64,000 nucleotides of DNA, from NCBI RefSeq assembly GCF_901538355.1, contig NZ_LR593887.1:62001-126000 (forward strand). The letters run 5' to 3'. Origin of the DNA: Tuwongella immobilis. GTDB taxonomy: Bacteria; Planctomycetota; Planctomycetia; Gemmatales; Gemmataceae. Below the pieces are notes generated by a model. It saw only the letters and a list, made by a program, of their open reading frames with translations, was not told the DNA's origin and searched no databases. Position 1 is the first letter of the stretch; each line of letters opens with the position of its first letter. Shown piece after piece: positions 43,593 through 63,786 of the stretch. The position numbers and the translations under genes are program-made.

Positions 43593-43644
43593 CTCTCCCC
43601 ACCACAACTTGACGACTCACCACCCCACAACCGGGAGCGACACC

Positions 43645-44817: not shown

Positions 44818-45330
44818 TTATTTGCCGTTCATGCGAATGACGGCTTCTTTGCTGGCCGAATCCGCGGGGAAGAGTTTTTTCAGCTTTGAGGTATCGACCT
44901 GTTTCACCTGGGGGAATTGCTTGGTGAATTCGGGGTTTTTCAACAGCGATGGCAATTCTTTTTTCAGCGATTCCATTTGAGCGGTTGGTTTGGGTTTGTC
45001 CAGATTCCAGGCACATTCCAGCAACACGCCAGCACTGGCTTGTCCTTCGCCGAAGATAATCGTATTGCCCGATACCGAGAAGCCGATAAACACAAACGCT
45101 GTCATGTACGGGCTTTTGGGTTTGGTTCCCAGCGCCGCCACATCAACCACAATCGGGCACATGCCGGCTTCCAATTTGGTCAATGGGCTGAGTCGCGTGC
45201 TCAGACTGCCGCAGGCTTGTAACTTGATGGTGCATTCCACATCGTCTGCCCGCACGGCTGAGGTGCTCAGTAGCCCCAGCAGGATCGCCAGCGCGGAAAC
45301 TCGCAGGTGGTGGTGGTGCAGAAATCGCAT
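44818..45330 (-). CDS. Secreted hypothetical protein
   Basis: The 170-residue protein has a signal peptide (1-28, MRFLHHHHLRVSALAILLGL then LSTSAVRA) and a beta-rich body with three Cys. Segments such as MTAFVFIGFSVSGNTIIFGE and a Lys-rich C-terminus are seen. It is likely periplasmic. I do not recognise a family. Confidence 0.65.
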   Translation of the reverse strand: MRFLHHHHLRVSALAILLGLLSTSAVRADDVECTIKLQACGSLSTRLSPLTKLEAGMCPIVVDVAALGTKPKSPYMTAFVFIGFSVSGNTIIFGEGQASAGVLLECAWNLDKPKPTAQMESLKKELPSLLKNPEFTKQFPQVKQVDTSKLKKLFPADSASKEAVIRMNGK

Positions 45331-45450: not shown

Positions 45451-46767
45451 TCAGTGGCGCAATCGCGGAATGAGGTCCATCAGAATGCGATGCTGGAATC
45501 GCAGCACGCACGATTCTTGAAATTGCCGCACACCGTAGATCCACGCCATCAGAATGAGACTTAATAATAGACTGACGAGCGTCGTATCAAAGGCGGTACC
45601 CAGGCTGAGCGAAACCGTCTGAATCGCCTCGCGCTGGAGTTCGCTATTCTGCGTGACCATGTCGCCAGCGCTCAGCAGGGCGGAACCGACCCCCAGAACG
45701 GTACCGACGAAGCCCAAACTGGGAATCGCGTAGGCCAGATAGAGCAGCGATCCCATCTCGGAATCGATGCGGCGGAGTCGGTGTTGCACGTACTGATCCA
45801 GTGCGCCAGCGGCTTGGTTGCGGTCGCGGATGTTGTTGGCCTTCAGTTCGCCAAGCAGGTAGCCATCGTAGGTCACGCGGAGCATTTCCGAGGCGAGACA
45901 ATGACCATGGCTGGGGCGCGGCGTGTGAATGCGCTCCAACTCGGCGACAATCTGATTCCCAAACAGGCAATACTCGTTGGATTCTCGCGCGGCTTCCAAG
46001 CGAACGCCCTGCGTGGAATCGACGAAGGGGAATAACCCTTCCGGTTGGTTGGATGCTTGTGCGACCGAGCGGAATCGACGTGCGGCCCGTTCCTCGAAGA
46101 CGACGCCTTCGACCCAGCGACGCAGCACGATCATCATGGCCATCACAAAGGCCACGGTGGTCAGCCATTGCACCCAGCCGTTGACCCAGCGCATGACGCG
46201 GAAGGGCACCCAGCGCATGATTTCGCCGTAGGTGTTGCCGAAGTGCCGCAGCAGCACCTCGCGGGCTTGGTCATCATCGGGAAAGGTGGGGCGGCCAAGC
46301 GATTCGGGATTCGTCGCAGATTGAGAGGGGGCATCTCGATCTTGAAACAGCAATCGTCGCAGCGATCGCTCGCGGAGCATCCCTTGGATGGGCACACCCA
46401 GCGCGGTGGCCACACGATCGAACGGATCCAAGTCGCTGGTCTGAAACAAGTTGTGGAGAAAATCGTCGGTGCGGGCATCGTTCGCGGCCCAGGCGGTTTT
46501 CGACAGCAGATCGATACTGTTGAGATCGTCCTGGCGAATGCCCAGCCGCGTGGGGTCGAGTTGACCCGACGAGTTGAGCAGCGATTTCAGGCCGGGCACG
46601 CCTTTTTCGTTCCAGATGAGGTCGGATCGAATCCACTGCACGCCTATTTTCCGCATGGCGGAATTGATCGCCAACAGCTCGAAATTCGCCATCAAGCCGC
46701 CCAATAGCACGAGCAGAATGACCCAATTGGGCATGGCGAAGATGCGGCGTTTCAGAAATCGCGTCAT
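45451..46767 (-). CDS. MotA/TolQ/ExbB-like proton channel protein
   Basis: The 438-residue protein has an N-terminal span (about 13-31), a large soluble part, and further spans near 195-215, 340-362 and 388-410. The C-terminal part carries the MotA_ExbB pattern: LLYLAYAIPSLGFVGTVLGV followed by GTAFDTTLVSLLLSLILMAW, with Thr residues where ExbB/TolQ have channel threonines. This family forms the pentameric stator that uses the proton gradient to drive an ExbD/TolR-type partner. It is much longer than ExbB (about 240 aa). Its ATG overlaps the previous gene's stop (46764-46767). It is the last gene of the five-gene unit that begins with the giant protein. Confidence 0.8.
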   Translation of the reverse strand: MTRFLKRRIFAMPNWVILLVLLGGLMANFELLAINSAMRKIGVQWIRSDLIWNEKGVPGLKSLLNSSGQLDPTRLGIRQDDLNSIDLLSKTAWAANDARTDDFLHNLFQTSDLDPFDRVATALGVPIQGMLRERSLRRLLFQDRDAPSQSATNPESLGRPTFPDDDQAREVLLRHFGNTYGEIMRWVPFRVMRWVNGWVQWLTTVAFVMAMMIVLRRWVEGVVFEERAARRFRSVAQASNQPEGLFPFVDSTQGVRLEAARESNEYCLFGNQIVAELERIHTPRPSHGHCLASEMLRVTYDGYLLGELKANNIRDRNQAAGALDQYVQHRLRRIDSEMGSLLYLAYAIPSLGFVGTVLGVGSALLSAGDMVTQNSELQREAIQTVSLSLGTAFDTTLVSLLLSLILMAWIYGVRQFQESCVLRFQHRILMDLIPRLRH

Positions 46768-47585
46768 GATCGAGACTCCGACGGGGTGAGTCGTTCCGCA
46801 ACGAGTTGTTCGATGGTGTCATCTGCCAGATGTTGCTCCGGTGGCAGCCATGCCGTGGAATTGGTCCGCGGTGGCGCGATCATCGCACGGGGAAGGGCTG
46901 CGCGATGCTCCGGGGGCACCTGATTCAAGTCGATGACCAATCGGACCGGATGCCGATTCTGGAGCGGGCGATGCCACGCTGCATGGAGCGAATTCCACCG
47001 TTCCGGAACCGCCAAAAATTGTGGCACCAGCGATTCCGGCAGATGCTGAGCGGGAATCCACCCGTGATGCAACACGTTTAACTGCATGGGGTTGGGGTGA
47101 TTCGGCGGCCAGACGATGATGCGGAGTTGCGCCAATTGCAGGAGACATTCGGCCAGGGATTCGGGTACGAGTTCTGTAAACTTGGCGGGGATGCGGTTGG
47201 CCCAACCGATCGGGGATTCATCGAGTGCGGCTTCGAGCGACTGCGGAGCGGTGAGTGCCTGATGCAGCAGCCAGGAGCAGAATTCACGCATCGGGCGATG
47301 CGGCCACCGATAGAGCGCATGCCTCCGAGCAAAGCAATCGGCGGCATGCGACCACGCCATCGCCAAGAAATCCGGCGAATCTGTATCGATATCAACGGTC
47401 GGATTGCACGCCTCGTCCAGCGATTGCAGCGTGAGAAATCGCCACTGCGGATGGGCGGTCACAAGCGGTTCCGGCGATTGAAGCAGTCGCGTGGTTGCCT
47501 GCGAATTCACCGGCAGATCCACGGTTGTGTGCCGACGCAGGCGATGACAGCCGCTATTGGGGAACAAATACCAGTTCATGGTCAT
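46764..47585 (-). CDS. Soluble hypothetical protein of the giant-protein operon
   Basis: The 273-residue protein has no signal peptide and no membrane span. It is rich in Trp, Pro, His and Leu (MTMNWYLFPNSGCHRLRRHT at the start), with a helical core (about 90-175). It overlaps its upstream neighbour by 4 bp (ATGA, 47582-47585) and its downstream neighbour by 4 bp, which argues for a job in the same machine, perhaps as a cytoplasmic factor. No family recognised. Confidence 0.65.
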   Translation of the reverse strand: MTMNWYLFPNSGCHRLRRHTTVDLPVNSQATTRLLQSPEPLVTAHPQWRFLTLQSLDEACNPTVDIDTDSPDFLAMAWSHAADCFARRHALYRWPHRPMREFCSWLLHQALTAPQSLEAALDESPIGWANRIPAKFTELVPESLAECLLQLAQLRIIVWPPNHPNPMQLNVLHHGWIPAQHLPESLVPQFLAVPERWNSLHAAWHRPLQNRHPVRLVIDLNQVPPEHRAALPRAMIAPPRTNSTAWLPPEQHLADDTIEQLVAERLTPSESRS

Positions 47586-48766
47586 TTGGCGGCTCTCGAT
47601 TGCGGGGCGGCCTGTGGCGCGGGTGCGGGTGCGGGTTCGGGGGGATAGCCGCCGATCCACACGCCGGGCAGATAATCCGATTCGGCGGGTAACTGGCGAG
47701 CGTAACCGGCAGCGCCGAGAATCAGCCCCTCGCCGATGCCGATGCGAGGATCGAGAATCGCGGGCAACTGCCGAAATAATCCTGGCTGACGGGCCGAATC
47801 GGCGAGCGGATAGCGGGCAATCGGCGGCAGCGCGGTATCGTCAACCCAGGTCAGCACAAATGTGGGCACCCAATTCGCTTCCGTCTGGAAGCTGGTGCGC
47901 TCTCGAAAGCGAATCGATTTCGGGCCTGGCGTTTGAGGCAACGGGTAATGATTGGGCCAACTCGGGAGCCACAAATCGGGCCAATAGAGTTGATTCATCC
48001 GCTGCTGATCCTGGGCACGGGTACTGTTTGCCGGGCGCTTGGCCTGAATCGCCTCGACCTGCAATTCCTGGCGAATGAGCGGCATTCCCGCTCCGTCTGG
48101 CCAGTACGCATCGGCGAAGGTCGCCTGCGTTTGATATCGAGCGGAGCCGGGCCACCCGCTGGAATCGATCCGCAGCCACGCCTCGGCCGTCTGCGTGGCA
48201 TCGGGGCGTTTGGTGCGATTGAGCTGGAAAAAGTACCACCCCTCGGCCAATTCCGACAGGGCCGCATCCACCAGAATCGCCAAATATTGACGCGGCCCCA
48301 CGGTGCGAATGCCGACGACCTCGTACCGCAAATGCGCTCGCGCTTGCGAATCGAACATGGTCAGCCGACGTTGCCCCTGAGCGAGGCGCGGCGAGCCGTT
48401 GGAAATGCCGAGCGGATCGTCACTGGTGACGGCGGAATCGACCTTCAAGGTCGGCAGTTTCAGCGAATACGGCACGCGGGCATCGGTTTGTGCTTGCGAG
48501 ACCGATCGGTGCCGAATCGACAGTTCGATTTCATGCGCCTCCGCAATCGCATCGGCTTGCGGGCTGCCGGGGGCGATTCGGACATTCGGAATGGTGACAT
48601 CGATCCACACCCCGGCGGAGACGGTCAAGAATCGCTCCTTGGCCCCGGCGATACTGGGCCGGGACATGCTGGCGATGAGCAAAAACGAAATCAGAATCGC
48701 GCCGCCCAGGGCACAGCAGAGCAGATCCAGCACGCTCATCGAAAAGACGCGAATGACTTTGGCCAT
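47582..48766 (-). CDS. ExbD/TolR-like single-span protein, copy 2
   Basis: The 394-residue protein has one N-terminal membrane helix, reading MAKVIRVFSMSVLDLLCCAL then GGAILISFLLIAS. Asp14 stands at the membrane entry, where ExbD/TolR have the essential proton-carrying Asp. The rest (about 40-394) is exported, beta-rich and Pro-rich, with a Pro/Ala/Gln tail. It shares the MDLLCCALGG-type segment with the next gene but little else, so the two are distant paralogues. It starts 2 bp after the upstream stop. The ExbD relationship rests on the helix, Asp and context. Confidence 0.65.
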   Translation of the reverse strand: MAKVIRVFSMSVLDLLCCALGGAILISFLLIASMSRPSIAGAKERFLTVSAGVWIDVTIPNVRIAPGSPQADAIAEAHEIELSIRHRSVSQAQTDARVPYSLKLPTLKVDSAVTSDDPLGISNGSPRLAQGQRRLTMFDSQARAHLRYEVVGIRTVGPRQYLAILVDAALSELAEGWYFFQLNRTKRPDATQTAEAWLRIDSSGWPGSARYQTQATFADAYWPDGAGMPLIRQELQVEAIQAKRPANSTRAQDQQRMNQLYWPDLWLPSWPNHYPLPQTPGPKSIRFRERTSFQTEANWVPTFVLTWVDDTALPPIARYPLADSARQPGLFRQLPAILDPRIGIGEGLILGAAGYARQLPAESDYLPGVWIGGYPPEPAPAPAPQAAPQSRAAK

Positions 48767-48768
48767 GA

Positions 48769-50145
48769 TTACCGGGCACCTCCCGGCGCTTCGACTGGCG
48801 GTGCGACTGGCGCTGGGACTGGCGCTGGGACTGGCGGGGCGACTGGGCCAAACCAGACGGGCCGATCCGCCGATAATTCCGCAGGAGATTCCCCCGCCTG
48901 CGGCACCCAACTTCGTTGCCCCCACGGTGGTGTGGAGACGGTCAGCCGAATTGGCACGCGGCGATCCAGCGGCAGATTCGGATCGGTCCCGCCCAATGCC
49001 TGGCCGTAGCGTCTCACGCGAGCCAGCGCTTGGCTGGCATTCGGAAAGCTCTCCGCAATCGGCCCCGAGAGAAGATCCTCCCATTCGAGCCGCTCCTGTG
49101 GGGATGCGCTGCCGGGGAGTTTCCGGTTCGATTGCTCCAACGCCTGCTCAATGGCCTGGAGCATCTGGTTGACTTGCTTCGTGTGCTCTTGCGGAGGCGG
49201 GTTGATTGGCAACAGCGGCACAATCTGTTCCCACCACAGTTTCAACAGGCGTTGATCGCGTGGCGAAATCGCCTGCGGGTCGAAGCCTTTCAGCCAGGTG
49301 ATCCGCTCGAACATGCCGACGGTTTCACGGCGCATCGGTTGCAGATCGCTCATCGACTTCGGAATTGGCCGCGTCAACATCATTGTGACGGGGCGACCGG
49401 CGGAGCGCGGGGGCGTGCGGCCGGGTTTGACTTCGGTTTGCTGCGTATGCACCTCCAACGGAGCGAATTGGCCCATCGCCCATGTCAATTCGTCCTGCAA
49501 GGCGTTGAGTTGTTGTTCCAATCCGCGCGGGTTTAAGACGCTCACCTCGAATCGCCAGAAGGCATCGTGCCGTTTCAGGAGTGTCTGGGAATTCAAGCGT
49601 GCGAATTGATCGGCCAGTAGCGATCGACCCCGTGGAATCGTCAATTCAATGAGCGATCCTTGATCCGTGATCGATCGGGTGAAGAATCCGACGAATCGCT
49701 CGCTGGGTGGGACCGCATCCGCGCGGGGCGGCCCATTCGCCGGTTGTGCCAGATTCTCGGCGGGATTCATGGGGCGATTCCCGGGCGGGCGAATCGACTG
49801 CAAGCGCAAAATCGGCGCGGATTGCGTGATGGCGAACTCCTGCTGGGCGGTCAGCGCGTTGGCTTCCAATCGCGGCGGAAATGCCCGCAACTGCACGGGG
49901 TAACGGGTTCGCCCGTTGATGTGCAAACGAACAATCATTGGTTCGGGTGGCGACCGTTGGAACCCGATATCGGTAGGTACCAGCTTCCTTGCTTCGGGTT
50001 CCTTGGCGGGCAGATCGCTGCTCTTGCTGCGAATGCTGCTCACCAGGCTGGCGAAGAACAGCAACAGCAGCAACAGCCCGCCGAGCGCACAACAGATTAG
50101 ATCGATGAACGAGAGATTCATCGTGTCGATTTCTCGGTCGCTCAT
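48769..50145 (-). CDS. ExbD/TolR-like single-span protein, copy 1
   Basis: The 458-residue protein begins MSDREIDTMNLSFIDLICCA followed by LGGLLLLLLFFASLVSS, one membrane helix with Asp15 at its start, as in ExbD and TolR. The exported part (about 45-458) has Pro-rich linkers, a beta-rich middle and a helical section (about 310-400, QMLQAIEQALEQSNRKL). It ends in a Pro/Val/Ala repeat (PVPAPVPAPVAPPVEAP). It is far larger than ExbD (about 140 aa). The ATG overlaps the giant gene's stop (ATGA, 50142-50145). Confidence 0.65.
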   Translation of the reverse strand: MSDREIDTMNLSFIDLICCALGGLLLLLLFFASLVSSIRSKSSDLPAKEPEARKLVPTDIGFQRSPPEPMIVRLHINGRTRYPVQLRAFPPRLEANALTAQQEFAITQSAPILRLQSIRPPGNRPMNPAENLAQPANGPPRADAVPPSERFVGFFTRSITDQGSLIELTIPRGRSLLADQFARLNSQTLLKRHDAFWRFEVSVLNPRGLEQQLNALQDELTWAMGQFAPLEVHTQQTEVKPGRTPPRSAGRPVTMMLTRPIPKSMSDLQPMRRETVGMFERITWLKGFDPQAISPRDQRLLKLWWEQIVPLLPINPPPQEHTKQVNQMLQAIEQALEQSNRKLPGSASPQERLEWEDLLSGPIAESFPNASQALARVRRYGQALGGTDPNLPLDRRVPIRLTVSTPPWGQRSWVPQAGESPAELSADRPVWFGPVAPPVPAPVPAPVAPPVEAPGGAR

Positions 50146-53100
50146 CGGCCTCGTCCCATCGGATTCGCGGATTGAAACAACCCGCGCGGGTCGGCTTGAT
50201 AGCCGAGCGATGTCGCTGCCCCGGCCTTCCATCGGTCTGCCAGCGAGATCACATCGCGGCTCAGTTGCAGCACAATTTCCCGTGGCTGCGTGAGTTGCTG
50301 AATCTGCGGCGGTGTTTTCAGACGATCCGCTTCGAGTCGGGCGAGAATTGTCTTCATTTCGGTGATGTATCGATCCGACGCTCCGGATGGGGTCGAGAAT
50401 CCCAGGTCGATGTTCCCCTGATCGGCGGTACCGGGGCCGAAAAGGTACCCCCCGCCGTGCGGACTGGGGCCGATCCACCAGATGGTATGCTGGGCCGGTT
50501 GCACGCGACTTCGGGCAATGAAATCGGCTTGGACCATGGGCTGTTCCGCCGCGAAGAATGCTTTCAAATTGGAATCGCGTGGCAATGCAAACTTGCGCCA
50601 GGGAACGCCGGGGATATTCGGATGTTTGGCCTGATCCACCAGCAAGTTCGCGTTCCATGCCCCCGAGTGCTTCACCGGCGGAAGCGATACCAGCAGCACC
50701 GGCGCATCCACCGGCGTATTCATCGGCGCATTCGCATTCAACGGTGCGTTCATCGGCGCATTAGCTTGAGCTTGCGGCTTGGGTCGCACGAGTTGCCAGC
50801 GGGGTTTCACGGGGGCATCCAGTTGCATCAATTCCCGCACCAAGGTCGGTTGTTTCAGCCAGGTTTGGCCTTGCAGGAACGCCGGCGTGGGGGCATCCAA
50901 TGCGAGAAGCGGTTCCTGGGTATGCCAATCCTGACCCGAAAATGGGGCGATGAGTTCGGTGCCGAAGTCCGGTTTGGTCGAGGCCGCCGCCGGTTTCCCC
51001 CCGGTAATGCCCAGCCACAGTGGATACCGGGGCGGCGATTGCGGCGATTCTTCGCTGAGAAATGCAAACCGCGGGTCCGATTGCTTCGCGGCATCATCGT
51101 GCAGTTCCAAGATGGTCACTTTCTGGAAGGCGACCACCGCGGAATTCCCACGCAGGAAGGCCGGTTGCGCACTCGATTGCCGCAGATACGACTGCAATTC
51201 CGGCGGGCAGGCAATCCGCTCCGTGAAATACGGCTCCTCGTTGAGCAGGCGGATGGTCCGATGATCGCGGGACAAGGTCAGCCATCGCAAATGCGGCTGG
51301 TTCTGCGATTCGGTGGACAGCCAATAGACGCCGTTCGCCGCATTTTTGAAACTGTCCAGCATCGCCTGGCGACCGAATGATAGCGCATTGTTCGACCAGA
51401 ACGCATCTTGCGGAAACTGCCCGGCATCGATGGGCGTTTTGCCGTCGGGCAGTGTCGCCAGGAACGGGGCGAACGATGAATCCTTGGTGAGATACCAGAA
51501 CGGATACGGCGCATTCTCGCCCATGGATTTCACCCAGTCCGACAATTTCGCCGCAGTCATGACCACCCGAGCGAGCAGGATCGGCGTTTCCGCATCCGGG
51601 CTGACATCGCGGATCTCCAATGCGGTGGGATCGTTGCGGAGCATTTTCCCGAAGCCAACGGCGCCGCGCACCATCGTCGTCTGTTTCCGATTGGCCGAAA
51701 TGCGAATCAGCCAGCCTTGCCCCTTCGGCTCGATGGGGCCATCCTGCACCAGATACCGTGCCCCGTCGCTGGCCGCCGCCATGGGTGCGCTCCCGGGCGC
51801 GCCAGCCGGAGCAGATGGCGTGGGCGCAGGTGTGGCGTTGGCGGCGGGTTTGGGCGGCATCGGCGGCAGAATCAGCCAGGGGGTATCGGGCGTAGGATGC
51901 TCCAACCATTGTTGAATCAACGCGCTCGCTTTCGCCAGCTCCACCGGTCGTGTGAGCCACTCATTGGCGGCGTCCCACTGGGCGGCACCGGTCATCGCCA
52001 ACGGCTGAATCGTGCGATGATTGCCGACAATCCACAACGGCCCCGCCGAAATCGCCGCTTCATTTGCGGGATTCTGCGGATTTTGGGGATTCTGCGGCTT
52101 CGCGGTCGGCGGCAGATCCTTGGCACGCACCGCCAGCAGATAGTACGGCGGTTGGGTGGTCGTCCACGCCGATTCGAGATTTGCCCCGGCGTGCTGCAAT
52201 ACCGCTTCCAGCGATGCCCCCGTCGCGGCAGCCATCAACCCATCCGCTTCCTGAATGTCGCCTTGCTCGGTCTCGGAAATCACAATCAACCGATCGCCTT
52301 GACGGAAGATTGCTTCCCAGCGGATGCCTTGCTGCCGCAATCGAAGCGGTTCCAGCGGGCGATTCTGCTGCACGACTCGCCGATGAATCGCCTCGTAGAA
52401 TTTCGCGTGCGATGGGAACGATTCCGATTTCAACAGCGGTGCCAAATCCGGCGGAATCGCCTGCAAATTCCGGAGGGCGAACAGCGTCGGGGCGGTGGCA
52501 TCGCGGGGGTGAATCTGCCAGAGCGGATACGGCGTCAGTCGGCCAACCGGGGCCGCCGCCATCGCCTGCTTGAGCGAATTGGCATCCAGCGTGAGCAGGA
52601 CGGAATCCCCCGCACGCTTAAATTTGAAGCCGGGCACCTCACGTTTCGCAGCTGCCGGGTCGTTTCGCAGGAACCCGCCGAGTTGGTCTTGCATCCATTC
52701 CGGCAGCGGCAATTCGATCTCCCGTTTTGCCTGCGGGCCGTTCCCGATTTGCGTGGGAATGACGGTCAATTTCGCTTGGCCAGTTTTCCCACGATCGATG
52801 CCGAGAATATCACCAGGCTCGGCTGGTAATTCCGTCAACGGCCAGAAATTGCGTTGATTCAATCGCGGCGGCAGATCCGGATGCAGGCTCCAACGCTCCG
52901 CATTCATCCACGAATTTCGCACCGCTGGCGACAATCGCTGCACGTTGCGATCAAACGGTGCATACGCTCGCCCATCGGCAGTAATCAACCACCAGGGGTA
53001 ACGCGGGAACCGGGGATCATCCAGCAGTTGTTTACCCAATTGTTGCGAGACCGTCACTGCAGCCAAGGTCTTTTTGCCACCCACTTCGGTGAAGATCCCA

Positions 53101-56100
53101 TACCAGATGGTCCCAGCTTCCATCTGGAATTGCGGATTCGTTAATGTGTAGTTCGCATCATACGACTGACGCGGGATTTGCTGCGATTGATATTTCCCGA
53201 CAACTGTGCCGAAATGCTGCGGATACCGCTGTCCCAACGCGACTTGCAGCGACGCAATCGCCGCGGCTTCGGGCGTGAGTTGCCGCAGTTGTGGATTCTT
53301 GGGATGCGCTCGCAGCATCGGCACATTTGCCGGGAGCCGAATCATCGCGGCGGTGACCCGTTCGATGTAGAAGATGTTGTCGTGGTGCAGCCGCGAATGA
53401 TTCTGCATGGCGAGAATCCCCGGCTGCAAGCCGCCCATCGGCGCATCCCACGCCAGCACCACATAGCCGTTGACGTAACTCCCCAGCGACAACGACATTT
53501 GCGCTGGATTCGCCACCAAAAACGGTGAATTCTGATTCAGCAGTGCGCGCCGTTGGGCAGGAGTGAACATCGGCCAAACGGCAACTTCATCATCCAGCTT
53601 ATGCCAGGGGTGTCCTTGCTTCCAAATGATGCGAATCAGATGCGGTGGAATCGGCACCCCGTTCCAATGTGGGGCATACGGTACATACGGATTGCCATCG
53701 ACGCCCACCGGATCGCTGGTGATGATCGGCGGCGGCGCAATCGGATTCGGCGGCACCGGCGCGGGCACCGGGACCGGCTTTGGCGGCGGCGGTCCAGGCG
53801 GCGGACCGGGCGGCGGATCTAGCAATTGGATCGTCGGAATGACCGGGGCATACGAATTGTCCGAATTCGCAGTCCACGTCAGCAGCCCCATTTTTTCCGC
53901 CGTCGCGCCGATTGGCCCGGTGAACTGCACCGAGACGGTCGAAGGTGGGCCATTCGTGCTGAAGAAAATCCCCTTCAGATGGAGCGATCCGAAGCCGGAT
54001 TCCAATTCCTTGAACTGAGGATTGCTGGCAATCATGTCGGCAGCACCGAAATCGGCTCGCAGTGTGACGATGCGCTTGCTGCTCAATTCCTGCACCCGGA
54101 GAAAGCGTTGATTGTTGAGCGTGTAGAAGGTGGAGACATAATCTTTGCCGGAATCGCCGGGGACATGTTGAACCGTGGCACCCGCCGGCAGTTCGAGCGC
54201 GGGCGGCCCATCGGCAAACGAATCGGCTTTGCCATCGCCTTGGCTTTCGGAGTTGCCGGTACCATCCGGCCCTTCGCCGCCTTCGCCATCGCCACCCGGC
54301 CCAATCGGTGAGCCGATGCTAATGTTGAAATTCCCCTTCAGCAGTTCGAGTAGGCCGCGAATCAACTGCGCGGGATTGAGCAATTCCAGCAGACGTTTGG
54401 CGATTCGGCCCGGATCGAATGCCGCCGCGTAGGGGAAGGTGAACGTCGCTTTCACGATCAGCACCGCCGCCCGCAATTTGGCCCGCGAGGTGTTCAGATC
54501 CGCACCCAGCGAGACGAGATCCCCCAACCCGGGCAGCCCCGCCGAGGCTTGGGCATCCAGCGCCGTCTTGGACAAACTTCCCGGAATGCGGAAATTCGCC
54601 GAGGCGCGGGCAATGTACAGATTGATATTTCCCGCGACTTCCAGCCGCGTGCCGGGAATATCCAGCAGCAGCTTCGCCGTGGCGACATCGCAGCCCAATA
54701 GCCGAGCGAGCAGTTCGCCATCGAATCGAGCCGCTTTGCCATCGAGAACGACATTTGCCTTGAGCAGAATGATTTTCGACAGCAGTTCGTTGGTGGTGAA
54801 TCCCTGGCTGATTCGGGCGGCGGGGAAGTCGATTTCGCCAAATGAACGTGCCACCCCGAAGCCAAAGATATTCAGCGAGGAATCCATCCGTAGCGAGCCA
54901 ATTTTTTCAAGCGGCATCGAAAAGACGCCGTCGAGGTGGATGATTCGGCCCACCACTTCCGCCTTCACCAGCGTCAGTTTGCCGCGAATGCGGATGCGCT
55001 TGCCGGCCCGCTCGTAGCCACCGCCCAGGCTATACACTTCCAGCGGTCCGACGATAATCGACACCGGGAAGAGAATGTCGATTCCATCCGGCGGCATCAC
55101 TCCGCTGGGCGAGACGCCGATATTTTTCGCATGCAGGCTTAGCCCACCGAAGCCATCGCCCAGAAACGACAGGCCCAATGTGGCATCGAATCGGAATCCG
55201 CGTGGGAGCTGATTCGCCCCTTCGATGACGTCGATATTGTCGAATTTCAACGCGCCATCGCTGATCCAATCCGAGAATTCGCCCAACGCCAGCGACAATA
55301 CCCCCTTGAGTTGCGCCTTCAATTGCTGTTTCACGTCGGTCAGGCCGTCAATGCAGAATTGATTGTCTGCAATCACGATGTCGGCGGCGACTCGCACTGG
55401 CGGCGAATCGGACAGCGTTAGACTAATCGGAATGCGAACGCGGAAGCGGTTCCCGTCTTTCTCCAGTCGCGGAACCTGCACGCTAAGCCGCACCCCGTCG
55501 GCCAGCCGCAGATTCACTCCCGGCAGCCGATCCAGAAGCGGGTTGACAATCGCCAACGCCCATTCTTCCATGCGGGCGGAAGGGTGAATGCGAATGCCGC
55601 GAACCGTCGTCCGCTCAATCACCCCCGGAACTTCCAGCGTTGCATCCACACTCAGATAGCCATCTTCGAGCGATCGGGTGTCGTCGATTCGGAAGCACGA
55701 TTGCAGCCCCGTTTTGGCCAGCACCCACCGCGCCAATAACCATGGGCGATGAATCTTCGCTTTCGAGAAATCCGGTAGCCCGATCCGATTGTCTTGAATC
55801 GAGAGAATGTGGATGTCCGTGATGGTCAGCAGCGCGTCGCTATCCGGCTCGTTCTCGGTGATTTGCTGGAAGCGGTCATCGCGAAACAGGGTCTTCAGCG
55901 TCGCGGTAATCCGCTTGGTGGCGGGTTCCAGATGCGGGATCACCGTCACGGTCTCGCCCAGCAGCGAAATCGTGATGGTCTTGGGAAGCTGATCCGTGAC
56001 CGCAACTGTCGCCTGATTCACGAGTTCCTGCTTGAATTGCTTCACCCAGGCATCGTTGACCTGGACATCGATTTTGCCCGCTCGCAGATCCACCTGCATG

Positions 56101-59100
56101 GTGGCGATCGCTTGTTTCGGCAAGGCGATCTTCTGACCCGCCAGTTCGATCGCTTGCTTCGTGGTATTGGCGACCAGATTCCACCCGAACATCGTGGGTT
56201 GCTTCCCGGCCCGGTCGCTCGGTTTGATTTCCACGCTCACGCCAGCGATGCGCAGGCCATTCAGCACGGAATTCACCTTCTCGGTGATGAGCCGTTCCGC
56301 GCCGGTTCCGATGCGTGTGGCGATTGTCTCCAGAATCGGCCCGCTTTCCAGTTGGAATTTGCCTGCTGCGCTCAGTTTGGCACTCCACATCGTCGGTTCC
56401 AGCAGTTCATCCACTGCGACGGTGCCGATGATGACAATCGCTCGATTCGCGGGTTGATACTGGGCCAGTTCCAGCCCGACCGAGACAATTCCCAGCCGCT
56501 GTTGGAATTGGCTGAGATTCGATTGAATGATGCGGTTGACCTCCCCGGCGATGGTCTCGCCGAGTTTGTCCACCACGACATCCAGTGCGTTGGTGCGGAT
56601 TCCATCCAGTTGAATGGCGAACGACTGTTGCGATTTACCCATCGGCCAGCGAATTTCCAGCCCGCGAAGCTGCACGGTAACCGTGCGATCCAACAGGGTG
56701 AATTTGGCCTCCGCGCTCAGCAGTAGCCGCTCCAGGGTGAGGTCTGGCATCCCCACCAGCCGCACTTGCAGCCCGCCGAGATCCAGCTTTTTCAGCAGTT
56801 GCTGTTCGAGCCACGCGGTCAGCGGGACCATCAGCGGCGCGGTGTCGATGCTGGCTCGGGACAGGTCCAATCCGCCGCGACCGATTCGCACACCACGCAC
56901 GGTAAGCGCTTGGGGCGGTTGTGCCGGAATCACGCCGTTGGTGAATTTCCCCAAGGCTTCCAGCAACCCGGAAATCTGCCCATCGATGGCGATTCCGCCC
57001 GGTTCGGGGGTGATTTGCGAGAGCGTCAACGTCATTGGACCAATGCCGAATTGCATCGGTTTGAGCATGGCGATGACGGTTTTCCAGCCATCGAATTGCA
57101 CCGTCGGCTTTCCGCTGGCGGTCAGCACGACATGCCCCAACGGAATGCCGTCTTTGGGCAACGGTTGCAGCAAATTGGGCAACTGCTGAGCGGTTCGCTG
57201 CGAATCCAGCCGGAATTCGATGCGCACGCCCAATTTCGCCCAATCGATGCTCTGCCATTGGCCCGCTTGTGGGAGTCCCTGCCATTGGATGGCAATGTCG
57301 ATTGGCAACACCGATTGCAATTCCGACAGGGCTTGCAGGCCCGGAACGCGGTCGGCGAGTTTGGCCATCCAGGCATCGACGGGCAAATCCACGCCCGGCT
57401 CGATTCCCGCCGCCAACTGCAACCCATCGCCGTTGAACAGAAACGCGGTCGGTCGTTGGGCGGGGTCGGCGATGGTTTCCCGCATCGCCTTGTCGCTGGG
57501 TCGCAGGGCGATGGTGATTCCGCCGGGCAACATCAGATCCGCATCGAAGCGGATGCCGTATTCGTGAGTTTTCCCCCGAATTTGCTGCATGCGGGCCTGA
57601 TACGCCTGGGTGCGATCCGCAAATTGAGCCTCCGTTTCGGTGTTGCTTCGCTGCGGAACTTCCGGCCAGAAGGTGATGCGGCCCCCGTGCGGATCGCCGG
57701 CCCGTCGGTAGTAGCGGCACCACGTCACGCGGGTGATTCGCAACTGCAATGGGGCATCGCCCGCCGCCGCGTTCGGGGCAAACAACGGGATCGGATGATT
57801 CCGCAGCGTCGAAGCCAGCGCTTCAGGCTGTAAAAACAGCCCCGATTCATCGGCAACCATCGCATTGGCCGGGGCCGCGCGAAAGGCCCGATTCAGCGCA
57901 TCGGTAATCGCGTAGGTGATGCCGAGCCGTTCTTGAACGACGCGATTTCCGGTGCGCAGCAGTTGCGATTCGAGTTGCTTCCAAGTTTCGGGCGGAATCT
58001 GCAAGCCGTCGCCGGAAATCAGGAACGGAATGGCGATGTTCAACTCCGCAATCGGCGGATGCTTCAGTCGGCAGACCCCCTTCAACGAGAGATTCAGCCG
58101 CTGATTCCGCCATTCGAGATGCGGGTCGAGTTGTTGCAGTTGAATGGCCCACGCCTTGGGCGCCAGCAGCGTGTTGCTGTCGAGTTTCTTCGGGGATTGG
58201 CCCGGTGGCAGATTCGATGCGGTCGCATTCGTGGGTGTGGATGCGTCGGCGTTGGTTTTCTCGACGAATTCCATGGTCAACGGCAAGCCGAGTTTGGCGA
58301 TTCCTTCGGAGAGATGTTGCTCGAAGTTGGCCGAGGATGTGAGCCGAATCGTGCCGGTTTGCCACGCGATTTTCCCGGCATTTTGGCTTAGCGCCAGCGA
58401 ATCACAATCGACGCGGAACGGAATCGGCCCCGCCACCGCCAGCGTTGCGGCATAGCTGACAAGCATCGGCTGTGGCGTGTTTTTTTGCCGCTTCAGCGTC
58501 ACCCGCACGCGCTCCGTGCCCAGGTTGAGCGTCTCCGGAAAGGCCATGGCGATGCCACGCAGCAATTCTGGCAGGAATTGCTCGACGCGGAGATTCGACA
58601 AGGCAATGTCGAATTCCAACGGCGATTCCGCGCCAGGGGGCGTCCAGCGACCTTGGATGCGCCACCCGGCTTGACTCCACCGCATGGCCGAGAGATGCAA
58701 TCCCAGTTGCGATTCGATTTCCTGGATCGGCATCCACGCGCTCAGCAGCGTCATCGGGGCGACGATTTGTACGCGTGGCAACTGCTGGGGCAGCAGCGAT
58801 TCCAGCGAATCGCCGAGTTTCGGCAATCGGGTCAGCAGCACGCCGTCGATCCGCACTTCGACCGCGGTTTGGCCCAATTTCAGGGTGCCGCTGCCGCGTA
58901 ATTCCAACGGAAGCTGTTGCCAGTTCGGTTCTTCCAATCGGAATGTCGCCGCCAATCCGGGGGCCAACGTCAGGGTGTGCGGTTGGGCCAGCCATTGTTT
59001 GGCGCTGGCGAGAATGGCGTTGGCTTTAGCGGTTTGTGCCTGAATCCAGGGGAGTTTGCCGAGGGCTTCCTGAATGGCCGTCCGGTTGGCAAGGGACCAA

Positions 59101-62100
59101 TCGCGGCCGTTCCAGGTGAATTCGACCGGGGTGGGGAATTCCGGGATGGCAATGCGGGTTTTGACCTGCAACGGTGGGGCGATTTCCACCTGCACCATGT
59201 CGCTGGGCCAAGTGGCCAAGAGTGTGCGGAATTCCGGCTGTGCGGTCAGACCCGCAAGTTGTTGCAACGCCAGGGCTTGCAGTTGTCGCCGGGTATCCTC
59301 CCCGATTCGGGCCAACTGCAATTCAATCCAGTTGAAATCGATGATGCCCGCCGGGGTGCGAATCGGCAAGGTGCGCAATCGGTCGAGCGACCATCCGCGA
59401 ATCGCTTCCAAATCCGCCCAGTCGCTGCTCCATTGGCCGAGTTCCAATCGCACTTCCGGCTTGCCGTTGCGGATGCGAATGCTCCCTTGGAGTTTGGCCC
59501 GAACTTGTTGTGGCAGCGATGTTTGCAGCTTCTCCAGCATCGCTTGCAGTGTCGCCGGATTTCCCCATTGGCTGCAATCCGCCGGTCGCCAATCGGTGCC
59601 GAATCGCTGCAATCGGAGTGCGATTCCGCCCTTTAACGTCGCTTGGATGGCTTGCCCGCCGTCGAGCAATTGCAGTCGCTCAATTGCGGGAAATCCCAAC
59701 GAATCGAGTGTGTGTTGAATGGTTTGTTGGACCGCAGGCGCTTCGAGCGATGTCTGCAATCGGGCGGTCCATTCCGCGAGCGATTGCGCAGCGCCGGCAA
59801 AGCGCACTTCCCACGAATTGCCCGCCGCCGATCGCTGGATGGACACGGTGACGCGAGGCAGAGGCACCCCCGCAATCGGGGTAGATTTTTCGCTCGTGGT
59901 CATGTCGGCAATCAGCTCCATTTGCAGCGATTGCTCTCGGATTTCCAGCTTGGCGATCTTGCCCGGAATCGGCGTCGGCAGGCCGCTGAGCCACTCGCGC
60001 ACCGCCGGAAGGGTGGCCGGATGCTGCGCCACCGTCACGAGGCGCAACGATTGGCCATTGGCCGCCAGCACCGCCGTGATTTCCAGCGGAATTCCCGTGG
60101 AGGCCGTCTGTTCGATGCTGCCGGCGTCGTTTGGCCGATTGCGATGCGTGCGAAACTCCAGCGTGGCGAGCAATCGCAGACGTGCGGGCATCTCGGCGGT
60201 GGCGGGTTCCGGTTTCAGGCTGTCCGGAATCGGCGTCAACGCAAAGCCAAGGTGCGTTAACGGTTGCAATTGCGCCAGCGATCGCATCTGTTCGAGTTGC
60301 TGCCACTGTTCGAGTTGATCGACGATGTCTGCCGGGGTGGGGTTTGCGGGCAGATGTGTGCCCAATTCGTTGGCCAATTCCGGAGCGGCATCGCGAAGTT
60401 TATCCCAGCTTACCGGAGCGGGAACAGCCCAGGAATCGAAGACACGCAGGCGGCGAAGGGCGGCTTCTTCCGGGGCGGAAATTTGCTCCAGCCAACGGGC
60501 GTGTGCATCGTTTGCAGCCCGTTTTTGGGCGTCCAGCAGTCGCTGTTGCACTGTTGGCGATTGCAGCCATTCGGTTTCGGATTCCAGTAATGCGAGTCGC
60601 GTTTCCAGGTGCGAGCGCAATTCGGCAGCAGACGCGGTGCGAAATTGTTCCGCCAGTGTGCGAAGCGATGGATCTTCCTGAAGAATCTTCGCCAAGGCTT
60701 CGCTGCGGGCCTTGCGGGTGGCGGCGATGCGCTGCTTCAAGAATGCCTGCGTCGCAGCGGGGAAAAACGCCGGGGCGGATGGTAATTTCCCCGCCGTTTG
60801 TTGGGCACGAATCGCATCCACCTGCGCGATCATCCCTTGGTAGGCAATCTTTCCCAAAAAGATCGTCCATGGCTGATTCCATCGACTTTGAATCTGTCGA
60901 TCTGCGGCAGCGCCTTCGGCCTGATTTTTCAGCTGCGCGAACCAGTCCGCCAGCGAGATCCGCACTTTCGCCAATGGCGGTTGCGAGTCCAGACGCGGCT
61001 CCTTCAATTGCCGATCCATCGCGTCCCGATGTTCCCCCCAGATGCGGGGGAGCAGATCGTCGGTGTTGCCGGTCAGGTCGGTCGTGAGTTGCTTCCAGGA
61101 ATGCCAGCGATTGTTCGGGTCGGCCAGGATATTCGCCGCTTGCCACGTCAACGCCGACGTGATGCGTTCATGCGTTTCGCTGCCCCACGATTCGCTATAC
61201 AGCACCGCCAGAATGCCGAGATGCTGATAGAAGGTTCCTTCGTTGGAACTTGCATCCAACGGAGATTTCTCGAACGATTCCGCCAGTTGACGAAACGCAT
61301 CCTGCGGCGGCAGGGATTCAATGAGGCTGCGCAATTGATTCGTTTCGACTTCGGAAATCCGGTTGAAAATTTTCCCGTTGAGGATCTTCAGTTGTTGCGC
61401 CAAATGCGCGGATTCCGCCTGAATCCCCTGAATTCGCTGGTTGATGTTCACCGTTTGCAGCCGCTGCCATTCCATCTGCGGCGAACGGATCGGCGGCGCG
61501 GTTGCGGGTGGGGTGGTTGAGTCGGCGGATGAATTCGCTGGCGGATTCGCTGGCGGATTGGATTCGGAGGCATCCGCATCCACAGCCAGCGATTGCGAGA
61601 TTTCCCGCGAATCAAACAGCACCCGACGGACTTTTTGCCGCTGCTGTTCGACATCGTCCGTTTCCGCCATTTGTTGCAGTTGCCGGGCCTGGGCACGCAG
61701 TGCCGCTTCGCGATGCGTGGCCTCCGCAGTTGGGCCGGTGGGGCCGGTCGGTGACGGTGGCGCGGCGTCGCCTTGGGCAGTCATTTGCGGATAGGCGTTG
61801 CCCCGTTCCACCTCGATCCGCGGGGATTGAGCCGCCATCAACTGCCGAGTCGGCGACGGCAACGGCAACGGATCGACCGCGATGGGTGGCGTCCGCGATG
61901 GTGTCTCCGAGTTGGGCGACTTCTGCGGCGGGAGCGTGGCCGACGAATCACTCGATTTCGCTTGGGGTTGCGTCAAATTGGGGGCGGGATGGGGACCATT
62001 CAGGAACAGCACCAACAGCCCTGCCAGAGTGGCCAAAATGAGCACGACGACGAGGATGTTGGACTGCCCCTGCGATGCGTTGCTCGGTTCCTTGCTCGGT

Positions 62101-62150
62101 TTGTTCGTCGGTTCGGAAGACGAAGAATGGGCATCCTGCGATGGATTCAT
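50142..62150 (-). CDS. Giant 4002-residue membrane-anchored envelope protein
   Basis: The protein starts with a short Ser-rich cytoplasmic tail and one membrane helix (about 31-50, ILVVVLILATLAGLLVLFLN), so nearly all of it lies outside the inner membrane. Residues about 60-230 are Pro/Ser-rich. Residues 230-620 are helical and Gln/Glu-rich. Residues about 650-2600 form an immense run of alternating beta strands and short amphipathic helices. That pattern recalls AsmA/TamB-type lipid-transport proteins, but no specific match is claimed. An Asp/Gly-rich stretch (about 2615-2650) and a Pro-rich linker (about 2775-2800) separate it from the C-terminal third. That third has at least four loosely repeated modules with a YP.W motif. 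Two ExbD-like proteins and an ExbB-like protein follow. Function unknown. Confidence 0.85.
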   Translation of the reverse strand: MNPSQDAHSSSSEPTNKPSKEPSNASQGQSNILVVVLILATLAGLLVLFLNGPHPAPNLTQPQAKSSDSSATLPPQKSPNSETPSRTPPIAVDPLPLPSPTRQLMAAQSPRIEVERGNAYPQMTAQGDAAPPSPTGPTGPTAEATHREAALRAQARQLQQMAETDDVEQQRQKVRRVLFDSREISQSLAVDADASESNPPANPPANSSADSTTPPATAPPIRSPQMEWQRLQTVNINQRIQGIQAESAHLAQQLKILNGKIFNRISEVETNQLRSLIESLPPQDAFRQLAESFEKSPLDASSNEGTFYQHLGILAVLYSESWGSETHERITSALTWQAANILADPNNRWHSWKQLTTDLTGNTDDLLPRIWGEHRDAMDRQLKEPRLDSQPPLAKVRISLADWFAQLKNQAEGAAADRQIQSRWNQPWTIFLGKIAYQGMIAQVDAIRAQQTAGKLPSAPAFFPAATQAFLKQRIAATRKARSEALAKILQEDPSLRTLAEQFRTASAAELRSHLETRLALLESETEWLQSPTVQQRLLDAQKRAANDAHARWLEQISAPEEAALRRLRVFDSWAVPAPVSWDKLRDAAPELANELGTHLPANPTPADIVDQLEQWQQLEQMRSLAQLQPLTHLGFALTPIPDSLKPEPATAEMPARLRLLATLEFRTHRNRPNDAGSIEQTASTGIPLEITAVLAANGQSLRLVTVAQHPATLPAVREWLSGLPTPIPGKIAKLEIREQSLQMELIADMTTSEKSTPIAGVPLPRVTVSIQRSAAGNSWEVRFAGAAQSLAEWTARLQTSLEAPAVQQTIQHTLDSLGFPAIERLQLLDGGQAIQATLKGGIALRLQRFGTDWRPADCSQWGNPATLQAMLEKLQTSLPQQVRAKLQGSIRIRNGKPEVRLELGQWSSDWADLEAIRGWSLDRLRTLPIRTPAGIIDFNWIELQLARIGEDTRRQLQALALQQLAGLTAQPEFRTLLATWPSDMVQVEIAPPLQVKTRIAIPEFPTPVEFTWNGRDWSLANRTAIQEALGKLPWIQAQTAKANAILASAKQWLAQPHTLTLAPGLAATFRLEEPNWQQLPLELRGSGTLKLGQTAVEVRIDGVLLTRLPKLGDSLESLLPQQLPRVQIVAPMTLLSAWMPIQEIESQLGLHLSAMRWSQAGWRIQGRWTPPGAESPLEFDIALSNLRVEQFLPELLRGIAMAFPETLNLGTERVRVTLKRQKNTPQPMLVSYAATLAVAGPIPFRVDCDSLALSQNAGKIAWQTGTIRLTSSANFEQHLSEGIAKLGLPLTMEFVEKTNADASTPTNATASNLPPGQSPKKLDSNTLLAPKAWAIQLQQLDPHLEWRNQRLNLSLKGVCRLKHPPIAELNIAIPFLISGDGLQIPPETWKQLESQLLRTGNRVVQERLGITYAITDALNRAFRAAPANAMVADESGLFLQPEALASTLRNHPIPLFAPNAAAGDAPLQLRITRVTWCRYYRRAGDPHGGRITFWPEVPQRSNTETEAQFADRTQAYQARMQQIRGKTHEYGIRFDADLMLPGGITIALRPSDKAMRETIADPAQRPTAFLFNGDGLQLAAGIEPGVDLPVDAWMAKLADRVPGLQALSELQSVLPIDIAIQWQGLPQAGQWQSIDWAKLGVRIEFRLDSQRTAQQLPNLLQPLPKDGIPLGHVVLTASGKPTVQFDGWKTVIAMLKPMQFGIGPMTLTLSQITPEPGGIAIDGQISGLLEALGKFTNGVIPAQPPQALTVRGVRIGRGGLDLSRASIDTAPLMVPLTAWLEQQLLKKLDLGGLQVRLVGMPDLTLERLLLSAEAKFTLLDRTVTVQLRGLEIRWPMGKSQQSFAIQLDGIRTNALDVVVDKLGETIAGEVNRIIQSNLSQFQQRLGIVSVGLELAQYQPANRAIVIIGTVAVDELLEPTMWSAKLSAAGKFQLESGPILETIATRIGTGAERLITEKVNSVLNGLRIAGVSVEIKPSDRAGKQPTMFGWNLVANTTKQAIELAGQKIALPKQAIATMQVDLRAGKIDVQVNDAWVKQFKQELVNQATVAVTDQLPKTITISLLGETVTVIPHLEPATKRITATLKTLFRDDRFQQITENEPDSDALLTITDIHILSIQDNRIGLPDFSKAKIHRPWLLARWVLAKTGLQSCFRIDDTRSLEDGYLSVDATLEVPGVIERTTVRGIRIHPSARMEEWALAIVNPLLDRLPGVNLRLADGVRLSVQVPRLEKDGNRFRVRIPISLTLSDSPPVRVAADIVIADNQFCIDGLTDVKQQLKAQLKGVLSLALGEFSDWISDGALKFDNIDVIEGANQLPRGFRFDATLGLSFLGDGFGGLSLHAKNIGVSPSGVMPPDGIDILFPVSIIVGPLEVYSLGGGYERAGKRIRIRGKLTLVKAEVVGRIIHLDGVFSMPLEKIGSLRMDSSLNIFGFGVARSFGEIDFPAARISQGFTTNELLSKIILLKANVVLDGKAARFDGELLARLLGCDVATAKLLLDIPGTRLEVAGNINLYIARASANFRIPGSLSKTALDAQASAGLPGLGDLVSLGADLNTSRAKLRAAVLIVKATFTFPYAAAFDPGRIAKRLLELLNPAQLIRGLLELLKGNFNISIGSPIGPGGDGEGGEGPDGTGNSESQGDGKADSFADGPPALELPAGATVQHVPGDSGKDYVSTFYTLNNQRFLRVQELSSKRIVTLRADFGAADMIASNPQFKELESGFGSLHLKGIFFSTNGPPSTVSVQFTGPIGATAEKMGLLTWTANSDNSYAPVIPTIQLLDPPPGPPPGPPPPKPVPVPAPVPPNPIAPPPIITSDPVGVDGNPYVPYAPHWNGVPIPPHLIRIIWKQGHPWHKLDDEVAVWPMFTPAQRRALLNQNSPFLVANPAQMSLSLGSYVNGYVVLAWDAPMGGLQPGILAMQNHSRLHHDNIFYIERVTAAMIRLPANVPMLRAHPKNPQLRQLTPEAAAIASLQVALGQRYPQHFGTVVGKYQSQQIPRQSYDANYTLTNPQFQMEAGTIWYGIFTEVGGKKTLAAVTVSQQLGKQLLDDPRFPRYPWWLITADGRAYAPFDRNVQRLSPAVRNSWMNAERWSLHPDLPPRLNQRNFWPLTELPAEPGDILGIDRGKTGQAKLTVIPTQIGNGPQAKREIELPLPEWMQDQLGGFLRNDPAAAKREVPGFKFKRAGDSVLLTLDANSLKQAMAAAPVGRLTPYPLWQIHPRDATAPTLFALRNLQAIPPDLAPLLKSESFPSHAKFYEAIHRRVVQQNRPLEPLRLRQQGIRWEAIFRQGDRLIVISETEQGDIQEADGLMAAATGASLEAVLQHAGANLESAWTTTQPPYYLLAVRAKDLPPTAKPQNPQNPQNPANEAAISAGPLWIVGNHRTIQPLAMTGAAQWDAANEWLTRPVELAKASALIQQWLEHPTPDTPWLILPPMPPKPAANATPAPTPSAPAGAPGSAPMAAASDGARYLVQDGPIEPKGQGWLIRISANRKQTTMVRGAVGFGKMLRNDPTALEIRDVSPDAETPILLARVVMTAAKLSDWVKSMGENAPYPFWYLTKDSSFAPFLATLPDGKTPIDAGQFPQDAFWSNNALSFGRQAMLDSFKNAANGVYWLSTESQNQPHLRWLTLSRDHRTIRLLNEEPYFTERIACPPELQSYLRQSSAQPAFLRGNSAVVAFQKVTILELHDDAAKQSDPRFAFLSEESPQSPPRYPLWLGITGGKPAAASTKPDFGTELIAPFSGQDWHTQEPLLALDAPTPAFLQGQTWLKQPTLVRELMQLDAPVKPRWQLVRPKPQAQANAPMNAPLNANAPMNTPVDAPVLLVSLPPVKHSGAWNANLLVDQAKHPNIPGVPWRKFALPRDSNLKAFFAAEQPMVQADFIARSRVQPAQHTIWWIGPSPHGGGYLFGPGTADQGNIDLGFSTPSGASDRYITEMKTILARLEADRLKTPPQIQQLTQPREIVLQLSRDVISLADRWKAGAATSLGYQADPRGLFQSANPMGRGR
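50690..50765. repeat. Short degenerate tandem repeat inside the giant gene
   Basis: A run of 5-residue units (NAPMNAPLNANAPMNTPVDA) is encoded here, close to residues 3795-3820. It is a low-complexity linker in the giant protein. A similar NPQNPQNPQN run lies near base 52080. Confidence 0.6.
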
Positions 62151-62902: not shown

Positions 62903-63268
62903 TTACCAGATCGAGAATTCTTTGTCGTACCCCTGCGGGTGGAAGATGGTGTAGTCTAACCATTCGTGGTTGTCCGTCTCCCACGAAATGCTTCGCACGA
63001 CGACGGCCGCGTTCAACAATCGAAGGCTGGCTAGCTCGCTCAAGACCAAGTCAAAGGCCCGCTGCCAGTCGTCGTCCCGGATGTCGAACACAAACAAGTT
63101 GATTTTTCCGCCGCCGTAGTCGTGGCCGTCATACTGTCCCAGCCCGTTCTCGGATAGCAGCGGTGCGAGCATGTCGGCGGCGTGCATGGCTCCGTGGATC
63201 CGCTCTGCCGGGAACTGCACGATCATCGCGACCGTGTCACGAACGCGTTGTCCTTGCTCATGTTCCAT
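62903..63268 (-). CDS. Small hypothetical protein, possible immunity-type, cassette 3
   Basis: The 121-residue protein starts MEHEQGQRVRDTVAMIVQFP and contains NLFVFDIRDDDWQRAFDLVL and a Trp/Tyr-rich end. It has no signal or membrane span. The short soluble alpha/beta look is common in bacterial immunity proteins, but no family is recognised. Its start codon and ribosome-binding site (GGAGGG, 9 nt upstream) lie in a 99-bp spacer found again before the next gene. Start at 63268 is set by that site. Confidence 0.65.
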   Translation of the reverse strand: MEHEQGQRVRDTVAMIVQFPAERIHGAMHAADMLAPLLSENGLGQYDGHDYGGGKINLFVFDIRDDDWQRAFDLVLSELASLRLLNAAVVVRSISWETDNHEWLDYTIFHPQGYDKEFSIW

Positions 63269-63363
63269 CCGAAAGCCCTCCGTCGCTGAACGATCCAAAC
63301 TCAGCAGCCCGATTCGTTCGGCGACTGCCCGGAACGACGATTATCTGCAGTGCCTGATTGGGC
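63265..63363. repeat. 99-bp spacer repeat, copy 1
   Basis: This 99-bp unit matches 63783-63881 at 94 positions. All differences fall in the last third. Read on the minus strand it supplies the end of one gene, the ribosome-binding site GGAGGG, and the ATG of the next gene. Confidence 0.85.
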
Positions 63364-63786
63364 GTCTGTCGGCTCGCCTGTGCAGACGAACGGGGGCGCA
63401 CCACTCGCCGGCCATATCACGATTGGCCCGCACTCGGCGGCGATTCGCTCCGCGACCGACGCCACGAGGGTAGCGGTACCGCCCCGGAACTCCAACTGAC
63501 ACGGCGAGTCTTCGGTGGTTACCTCAACCAGGCTGATCTCTGTCCCCGACCCAGCCGGGCGGGTGTTGCCGGTGCCCGGCGGGCTGAGGTCGATGCGAAT
63601 GAGTTGCTTCTCGGGCCGCCGCCGCACCGTGGCCTCCAGCCCTGGCACACTGCGAACGGCCAACAGCACTTGTCGGGGAGTCAGTGGCCGCGGCATGCCA
63701 AGCTGGGCCGGGGGCCGCACCCCGAACGACGCCAGTTCGGCGATGTTGTCGGCGGAGAGTGGCATCACAAGGTACAATTCCGCCAT
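63301..63786 (-). CDS. Small hypothetical protein, possible immunity-type, cassette 2
   Basis: The 161-residue protein starts MAELYLVMPLSADNIAELAS and has an alpha/beta pattern ending near CGPIVIWPASGAPPFVC. The last 21 or so residues (SGTADNRRSGQSPNESGC end) are encoded by the 99-bp spacer repeat, so the true protein probably once ended earlier and reads through into the spacer. No family recognised. The start at 63786 is fixed by GGAGGG in the second repeat copy. Confidence 0.65.
   Translation of the reverse strand: MAELYLVMPLSADNIAELASFGVRPPAQLGMPRPLTPRQVLLAVRSVPGLEATVRRRPEKQLIRIDLSPPGTGNTRPAGSGTEISLVEVTTEDSPCQLEFRGGTATLVASVAERIAAECGPIVIWPASGAPPFVCTGEPTDAQSGTADNRRSGQSPNESGC

Follow-up and report, generated by a model that had tools for sequence, protein, structure and literature searches.

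What might an ion-driven motor of the inner membrane do with a partner of several thousand residues? This question is raised by a unit of five genes in a 64,000-nucleotide stretch of the Tuwongella immobilis genome (6,690,754 bases on a single contig), referred to here as the window, in which the genes for an ExbB-type channel and two single-span proteins lie together with the gene for a giant protein. To our knowledge, ExbB/ExbD-type motors have few known driven partners, namely TonB, TolA and parts of gliding and secretion systems, and the TonB and TolA partners are about 240-420 residues long. Our analysis leads us to the view that the unit probably encodes an inner-membrane motor of the ion-driven 5:2 kind, coupled to a giant periplasmic protein that is anchored in the inner membrane.

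Results

Organization of the five-gene unit

The open frames read from the sequence place all five genes on the minus strand as one unit (window positions 45451-62150; Table 1). The arrangement originally noted, a giant protein followed by two single-span proteins with an aspartate at the start of the helix, a soluble protein and a MotA/ExbB-type channel, was borne out by the frames, the helix predictions and Pfam, as were the lengths of the genes and the four junctions between them. Three of these junctions are ATGA overlaps (genes 1/2, 50145-50142; genes 3/4, 47585-47582; genes 4/5, 46767-46764), and genes 2 and 3 are separated by a 2-bp gap (TAA TC ATG). The five-gene unit is thereby confirmed as real, and its frames are not the product of chance because a second genome of the family (G090) carries counterparts in the same order.

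Table 1. Features of the five-gene unit and its surroundings, in window positions
Feature	Position	Strand	Basis
Gene 1, giant, 4002 aa, one N-terminal helix, remainder predicted periplasmic	50142..62150	-	Open frame, helix prediction
Predicted membrane anchor, giant aa 32-50	62001..62057	-	Hydrophobic stretch ILVVVLILATLAGLLVLFL
Central strand-like region, giant aa ~401-2800	53751..60950	-	Hydrophobic alternation
Modelled piece, giant aa 2130-2296, helix-3 strands-helix-5 strands-helix	55263..55763	-	AlphaFold2, single sequence
Proline-rich linker between central region and C-terminal part, giant aa 2779-2815	53706..53816	-	Translation read directly
C-terminal part of giant with six spaced Y-P-L-W-like motifs, aa ~2980-3920	50391..53213	-	Translation
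Gene 2, ExbD-like, 458 aa, Asp15 at helix start	48769..50145	-	Frame, one predicted helix, G090 counterpart
Gene 3, second ExbD-like, 394 aa, Asp14 at helix start	47582..48766	-	Frame, one predicted helix, G090 counterpart
Gene 4, soluble protein, 273 aa	46764..47585	-	Frame
Gene 5, MotA/TolQ/ExbB-type channel, 438 aa	45451..46767	-	PF01618 match above cut-off
MotA_ExbB domain match, gene 5 aa 312-411	45535..45834	-	Pfam
Possible sixth gene, 170 aa, signal-like N-terminus (candidate membership)	44818..45330	-	Translation; 120 bp downstream of the unit

A channel protein and two candidate axle subunits

The assignment of gene 5 to the MotA/ExbB-type channels is upheld by its match to the Pfam profile MotA_ExbB (PF01618; 2.2e-6, 27.8 bits against a cut-off of 22.9), and the protein contains the conserved motifs GFxGTVxGxG and LGxAFDTT. 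In contrast to the ExbB proteins of the TonB and Tol systems, it has an extra N-terminal helix and a segment of ~160 residues ahead of the usual helices. In a tree of ExbB proteins, the grouping of the window with G090 is firm (100/95) and the grouping with G011, another genome of our set, and Rhodopirellula is weak (83/82).

Genes 2 and 3 display the layout of ExbD and TolR, with a single span, an adjoining ExbB gene and an acidic residue at the beginning of the helix (Asp15 in SFID-LICCALGG of gene 2, Asp14 in SVLD-LLCCALGG of gene 3). This acidic residue is kept in all aligned ExbD-like members and is changed only to Glu, which replaces Asp in the first ExbD-like helix of G090. The ExbD-like reading of the two genes therefore stands by layout and position but not by profile: neither gene matched ExbD (PF02472) at E<=1 in Pfam and NCBIfam, and searching the PDB with a profile of the ExbD-like helices recovered no chain of ExbD or TolR. 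Of the ExbB and ExbD profile matches on which the original prediction had been staked, only the former was thus obtained. However, the missing ExbD match is weak counter-evidence, since a study of the motor family reported that ExbD and TolR are typically below detection and assigned B subunits by gene neighbourhood (PMC12505986). Gene 4 has no Pfam match, and searches of genes 1-4 against Pfam, NCBIfam, PADLOC and PHROGs gave none above cut-off.

A giant protein with a strand-like central region

The giant shares the layout of the TonB and TolA partners in that a predicted N-terminal anchor is followed by a long, predicted periplasmic part and the gene lies beside ExbB/ExbD-like genes. No TonB_C or TolA domain was found in it with Pfam and NCBIfam, the protein had no match among Pfam, NCBIfam and PDB sequences, and phmmer detected no internal repeats beyond shuffles. 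Residues 401-2800 show hydrophobic alternation at 170 degrees (z 2.0-4.5 per 400-residue block against shuffles), and none above shuffles was seen in residues 1-400 and 2801-3600; the same measure gave z 1.8-5.7 for the genome's own AsmA-like protein. The alternation, a pattern in sequence that is no membership test for AsmA/TamB, is consistent with a beta-rich rod of elongated shape over residues ~400-2800.

Within this region, a 167-residue piece (residues 2130-2296) was modelled by AlphaFold2 from the single sequence with a pLDDT of 68.4 and a pTM of 0.62; a larger model of 861 residues (1740-2600) reached a pLDDT of 37 and was left out of interpretation. In the 167-residue model, helices alternate with antiparallel strands in helix-plus-meander units, with a helix every 60-75 residues. 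Comparison with PDB folds gave no match at E<=0.001, the best Foldseek match being CapZ at E 0.029, and the best VIA match (CapZ, Z 6.0) does not rise above noise; AsmA, TamB and TULIP chains were absent from the matches listed, which carries no weight against these folds.

The proposal that the giant is AsmA/TamB-like was consequently not sustained by profile or by fold. The AsmA (PF05170) and TamB (PF04357) profiles had no match in the giant, the AsmA match of the genome lies elsewhere in a separate frame of 1452 codons, and the modelled piece consists of helix-plus-meander units without a confident PDB match. We treat the label as a hypothesis that interprets the strand-like pattern. AsmA, TamB and YhdP do combine an inner-membrane anchor with a long, strand-rich periplasmic part, as predicted for the giant, but the giant differs from them in the lack of a profile match and in the helices that recur in its modelled piece, and we know of no ExbB/ExbD partner of these proteins. 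The TamB domain profile was found in none of 41 family genomes and in 6 of 14 control genomes.

Conservation within the family

Two of the 95 family genomes, G090 and that of the window itself, carry the giant together with the full unit. A first contig of G090 has, in order, the final 1057 residues of the giant, the pair of ExbD-like genes, a gene at the position of gene 4 and the beginning of the ExbB gene, whose end lies on a second contig. Similarity to G090 is 25% over 1133 residues for the C-terminus of the giant (E 6e-55), in which the six Y-P-L-W-like motifs are matched one to one, 28% for gene 2 (2e-36), 35% for gene 3 (1.5e-39) and 32% for gene 5 (2e-24), with a further 60% over 94 residues near the end of gene 5. 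The counterpart of gene 4 is one of position only, without significant similarity (E 0.72), and no match to the N-terminal or middle part of the giant was found in G090, where they may have been missed because the assembly is in ~1100 contigs. In G011, the same five-place layout is present with a 451-residue anchored protein replacing the giant. The expectation that the genes stay together in relatives was borne out, but in only two of the family genomes: the unit is conserved where present, yet rare.

A wider motor class with recurring giants

A profile built from the ExbD-like helices was searched in 392 genomes of the phylum and in a species-wide collection. Members were found in 17 of the 392 Planctomycetota genomes and, species-wide, in Planctomycetota, SAR324, Chloroflexota, Verrucomicrobiota, Acidobacteriota and Gammaproteobacteria. 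Of the members examined, nearly all adjoin an ExbB-type gene that contains GFxGTVxGxG and LGxAF[DN]xT motifs, and many occur as pairs, so that a scheme of one ExbB-type gene, one or two ExbD-like genes and a variable partner extends over several phyla. The last-helix motif of ExbB is also present in ExbB-type proteins of most family genomes and therefore marks a broad clade rather than the five-gene unit alone. Partners in this class include anchored proteins with PEGA and FGE-sulfatase domains, proteins with a coiled coil and FGE-sulfatase, FHA proteins and, in another type of operon, a protein with eight DUF4340 stretches. Because the partners differ across the class, these observations suggest that the motor serves as a general platform whose task depends on the partner.

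Giants of 2000-4370 residues lie beside such motors in three lineages, which lends support to the originally proposed pairing of giant and motor through two lineages beyond that of the window and G090. One of them comprises G163, in which a giant of 4370 residues lies beside ExbB and ExbD-like genes, and Rhodopirellula sallentina (L101), whose giant, cut by the contig, is 41% identical to the C-terminus of the G163 giant. The other comprises Sulfidibacter corallicola (~2100 residues) and an acidobacterial MAG (~2030 residues), with 28.5% identity along the length of the two giants. Every complete giant begins with an N-terminal hydrophobic helix, and a central strand-like region is common to the giants of the window, G163 and Sulfidibacter. 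A shared function cannot be assumed across lineages, since BLAST and hhalign gave no significant similarity between their giants.

Directly upstream of the giant, each acidobacterial unit has two small genes in the same orientation (L108 432-2011, L110 371-1875). Between the two species, identity is 33% for one product and 27% for the other; both products have a hydrophobic N-terminus, gave no Pfam match above cut-off and look, by eye, like lipid-binding TULIP folds. Other neighbours of ExbB-type genes were also noted. Within the family, at L128 5331-7000 (the window's own genome), L004 and L010, a gene for an ExbB-type protein of 272-330 residues adjoins a gene whose start resembles, by eye, Hsp70/actin-like ATPases, and the one such neighbour tested had no Pfam match. 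At L077-L079 and L085, an ExbB gene and two ExbD-like genes have a protein of actin-like appearance, again by eye, encoded between them. In Rhodopirellula sallentina (L101 7734-8408), the gene directly downstream of the motor genes encodes peptidoglycan-binding and Tlde1 domains.

Discussion

A proposed mechanism and its alternatives

ExbB-type proteins assemble as pentamers that enclose two axle helices and make use of ion flow (PMC9389320). By analogy, the product of gene 5 would form the channel ring, in the role of ExbB, TolQ or MotA, and the products of genes 2 and 3 would supply the two axle subunits, probably as a heterodimer; one acidic residue per subunit, embedded in the membrane, would be protonated and then released with the flow of ions. 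The giant would take the place of TonB or TolA as the driven partner, with its N-terminal helix beside the motor, its strand-rich rod across the periplasm and its C-terminal repeat domain close to the wall or the outer membrane, and gene 4 may encode a cytoplasmic assembly or regulatory factor. Candidates for what such a partner might pull or transport are lipid or polymer, or else mechanical work on the envelope; lipid transport is possible.

More specific readings of the task differ in how well they agree with the data. A mechanical or surface machine, in which the motor moves the giant so that it acts upon the wall, outer membrane or surface structures in the manner of AglRQS/Glt or GldLM and the six-motif C-terminal domain is the working end, is a possibility that we entertain tentatively. 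It agrees with the composition of one A and two B subunits, as in AglRQS, with the PEGA, FGE-sulfatase and DUF4340-repeat partners of the class, whose variety makes it seem that the task is set by the partner and not by the motor, and with the peptidoglycan-binding and Tlde1 gene next to the Rhodopirellula unit; however, homology to AglRQS was compared at the level of the general motor family only. The first reading of this locus favoured an AsmA-kind lipid bridge whose inter-membrane lipid flow is energised or gated by the motor, and this we now consider unlikely. The strand-like pattern over ~2000 residues, comparable to that of the genome's AsmA-like protein, would fit such a bridge, as would the absence of the TamB domain from the 41 family genomes, the TULIP-like appearance of the small acidobacterial proteins and the link between the Tol-Pal motor and outer-membrane lipid balance (Tan and Chng, 2025, as cited in PMC12977461). 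Against it stand the missing AsmA and TamB profile matches, the frequent helices of a modelled piece that has no confident match, the separate AsmA-like protein of the genome and the description of anterograde phospholipid transport in E. coli as diffusive and not energy dependent (PMC11226057). Its fuller form, in which an AsmA-like groove of the giants of Planctomycetota and Acidobacteriota would carry lipid or glycolipid, with flow or gating powered through the proton motive force by ExbB and an ExbD-like heterodimer, appears quite improbable to us.

The rarity and fast divergence of the unit and its sporadic spread over phyla would also suit a Zorya-like device for defence or envelope stress, built from a ZorA/ZorB motor and effectors. 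A PADLOC scan did return a weak match of gene 5 to ZorA (0.0021), as expected of any MotA-family protein, but, for the genes of the unit, none to ZorB, ZorC, ZorD or anything else in PADLOC, and we regard this explanation as very unlikely. We are just as sceptical that the giant is co-transcribed with the small motor and functionally separate from it; the giants do differ between lineages, but the genes overlap and giants repeatedly adjoin the same motor class. A motor coupled to the giant is the reading that we carry forward.

Relation to known systems

The unit resembles TonB-ExbB-ExbD and TolA-TolQ-TolR in its ExbB-type channel, its single-span subunits with an Asp at the start of the helix and its anchored partner reaching, as predicted, across the periplasm. 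It differs from them in having two different ExbD-like proteins without an ExbD profile match, an additional gene 4 and a partner of 4002 residues. The gliding motor AglR-AglQ-AglS of Myxococcus is likewise made of one A and two B-type subunits (PMC9389320), a likeness by subunit composition, and the question of a heterodimeric axle has been raised for AglQ and AglS (PMC9389320). Closer at hand, an operon of the family (L036 8537-16846, G004) encodes an ExbB of 511 residues, two single-span ExbD-like proteins and a membrane-anchored repeat partner, but this partner has 1306 residues with eight DUF4340 stretches, the ExbD-like motifs are other ones and there is no giant. The partners of AglRQS are the Glt proteins, and we know of no giant of the 4002-residue kind in that system. 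Zorya, too, has a MotA-family motor (ZorA-ZorB) in a multi-gene unit, from which the present unit differs by the lack of a ZorB, ZorC or ZorD match and by its giant, predicted periplasmic partner.

The original statement that no system of this make-up had been described holds within the literature searched. Outside bioRxiv, we found no paper that joins ExbB, ExbD, AsmA and TamB and none that joins AsmA-like proteins, TolQ and the proton motive force, and the main text of the Tuwongella immobilis proteome paper (PMC8567305) makes no mention of ExbB, ExbD, TolQ or MotA. The parts are of a known kind, that of ion-driven 5:2 motors, and the pairing of two ExbD-like genes with a giant partner is a variant for which we found no description in this literature. 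That partners of 2000-4400 residues recur with a two-axle-gene motor in three lineages suggests that motors of this class power tasks that have not yet been described. Moreover, this recurrence opens two questions to testing, namely whether such motors can have a heterodimeric axle and whether rods or bridges that span the envelope can be actively energised; if a lipid bridge driven by the proton motive force were true, it would represent a class of energised trans-envelope transporter.

Other features of the window

The 170-residue protein encoded downstream of the unit had no Pfam match above cut-off. Beyond it lies a tRNA-Glu gene on the plus strand (43521-43593). On the other side of the unit are two direct copies of 99 bases (63265-63363 and 63783-63881), 95% identical and 518 bases apart, with short partial matches only elsewhere in the genome; each copy overlaps the start of a small minus-strand frame.
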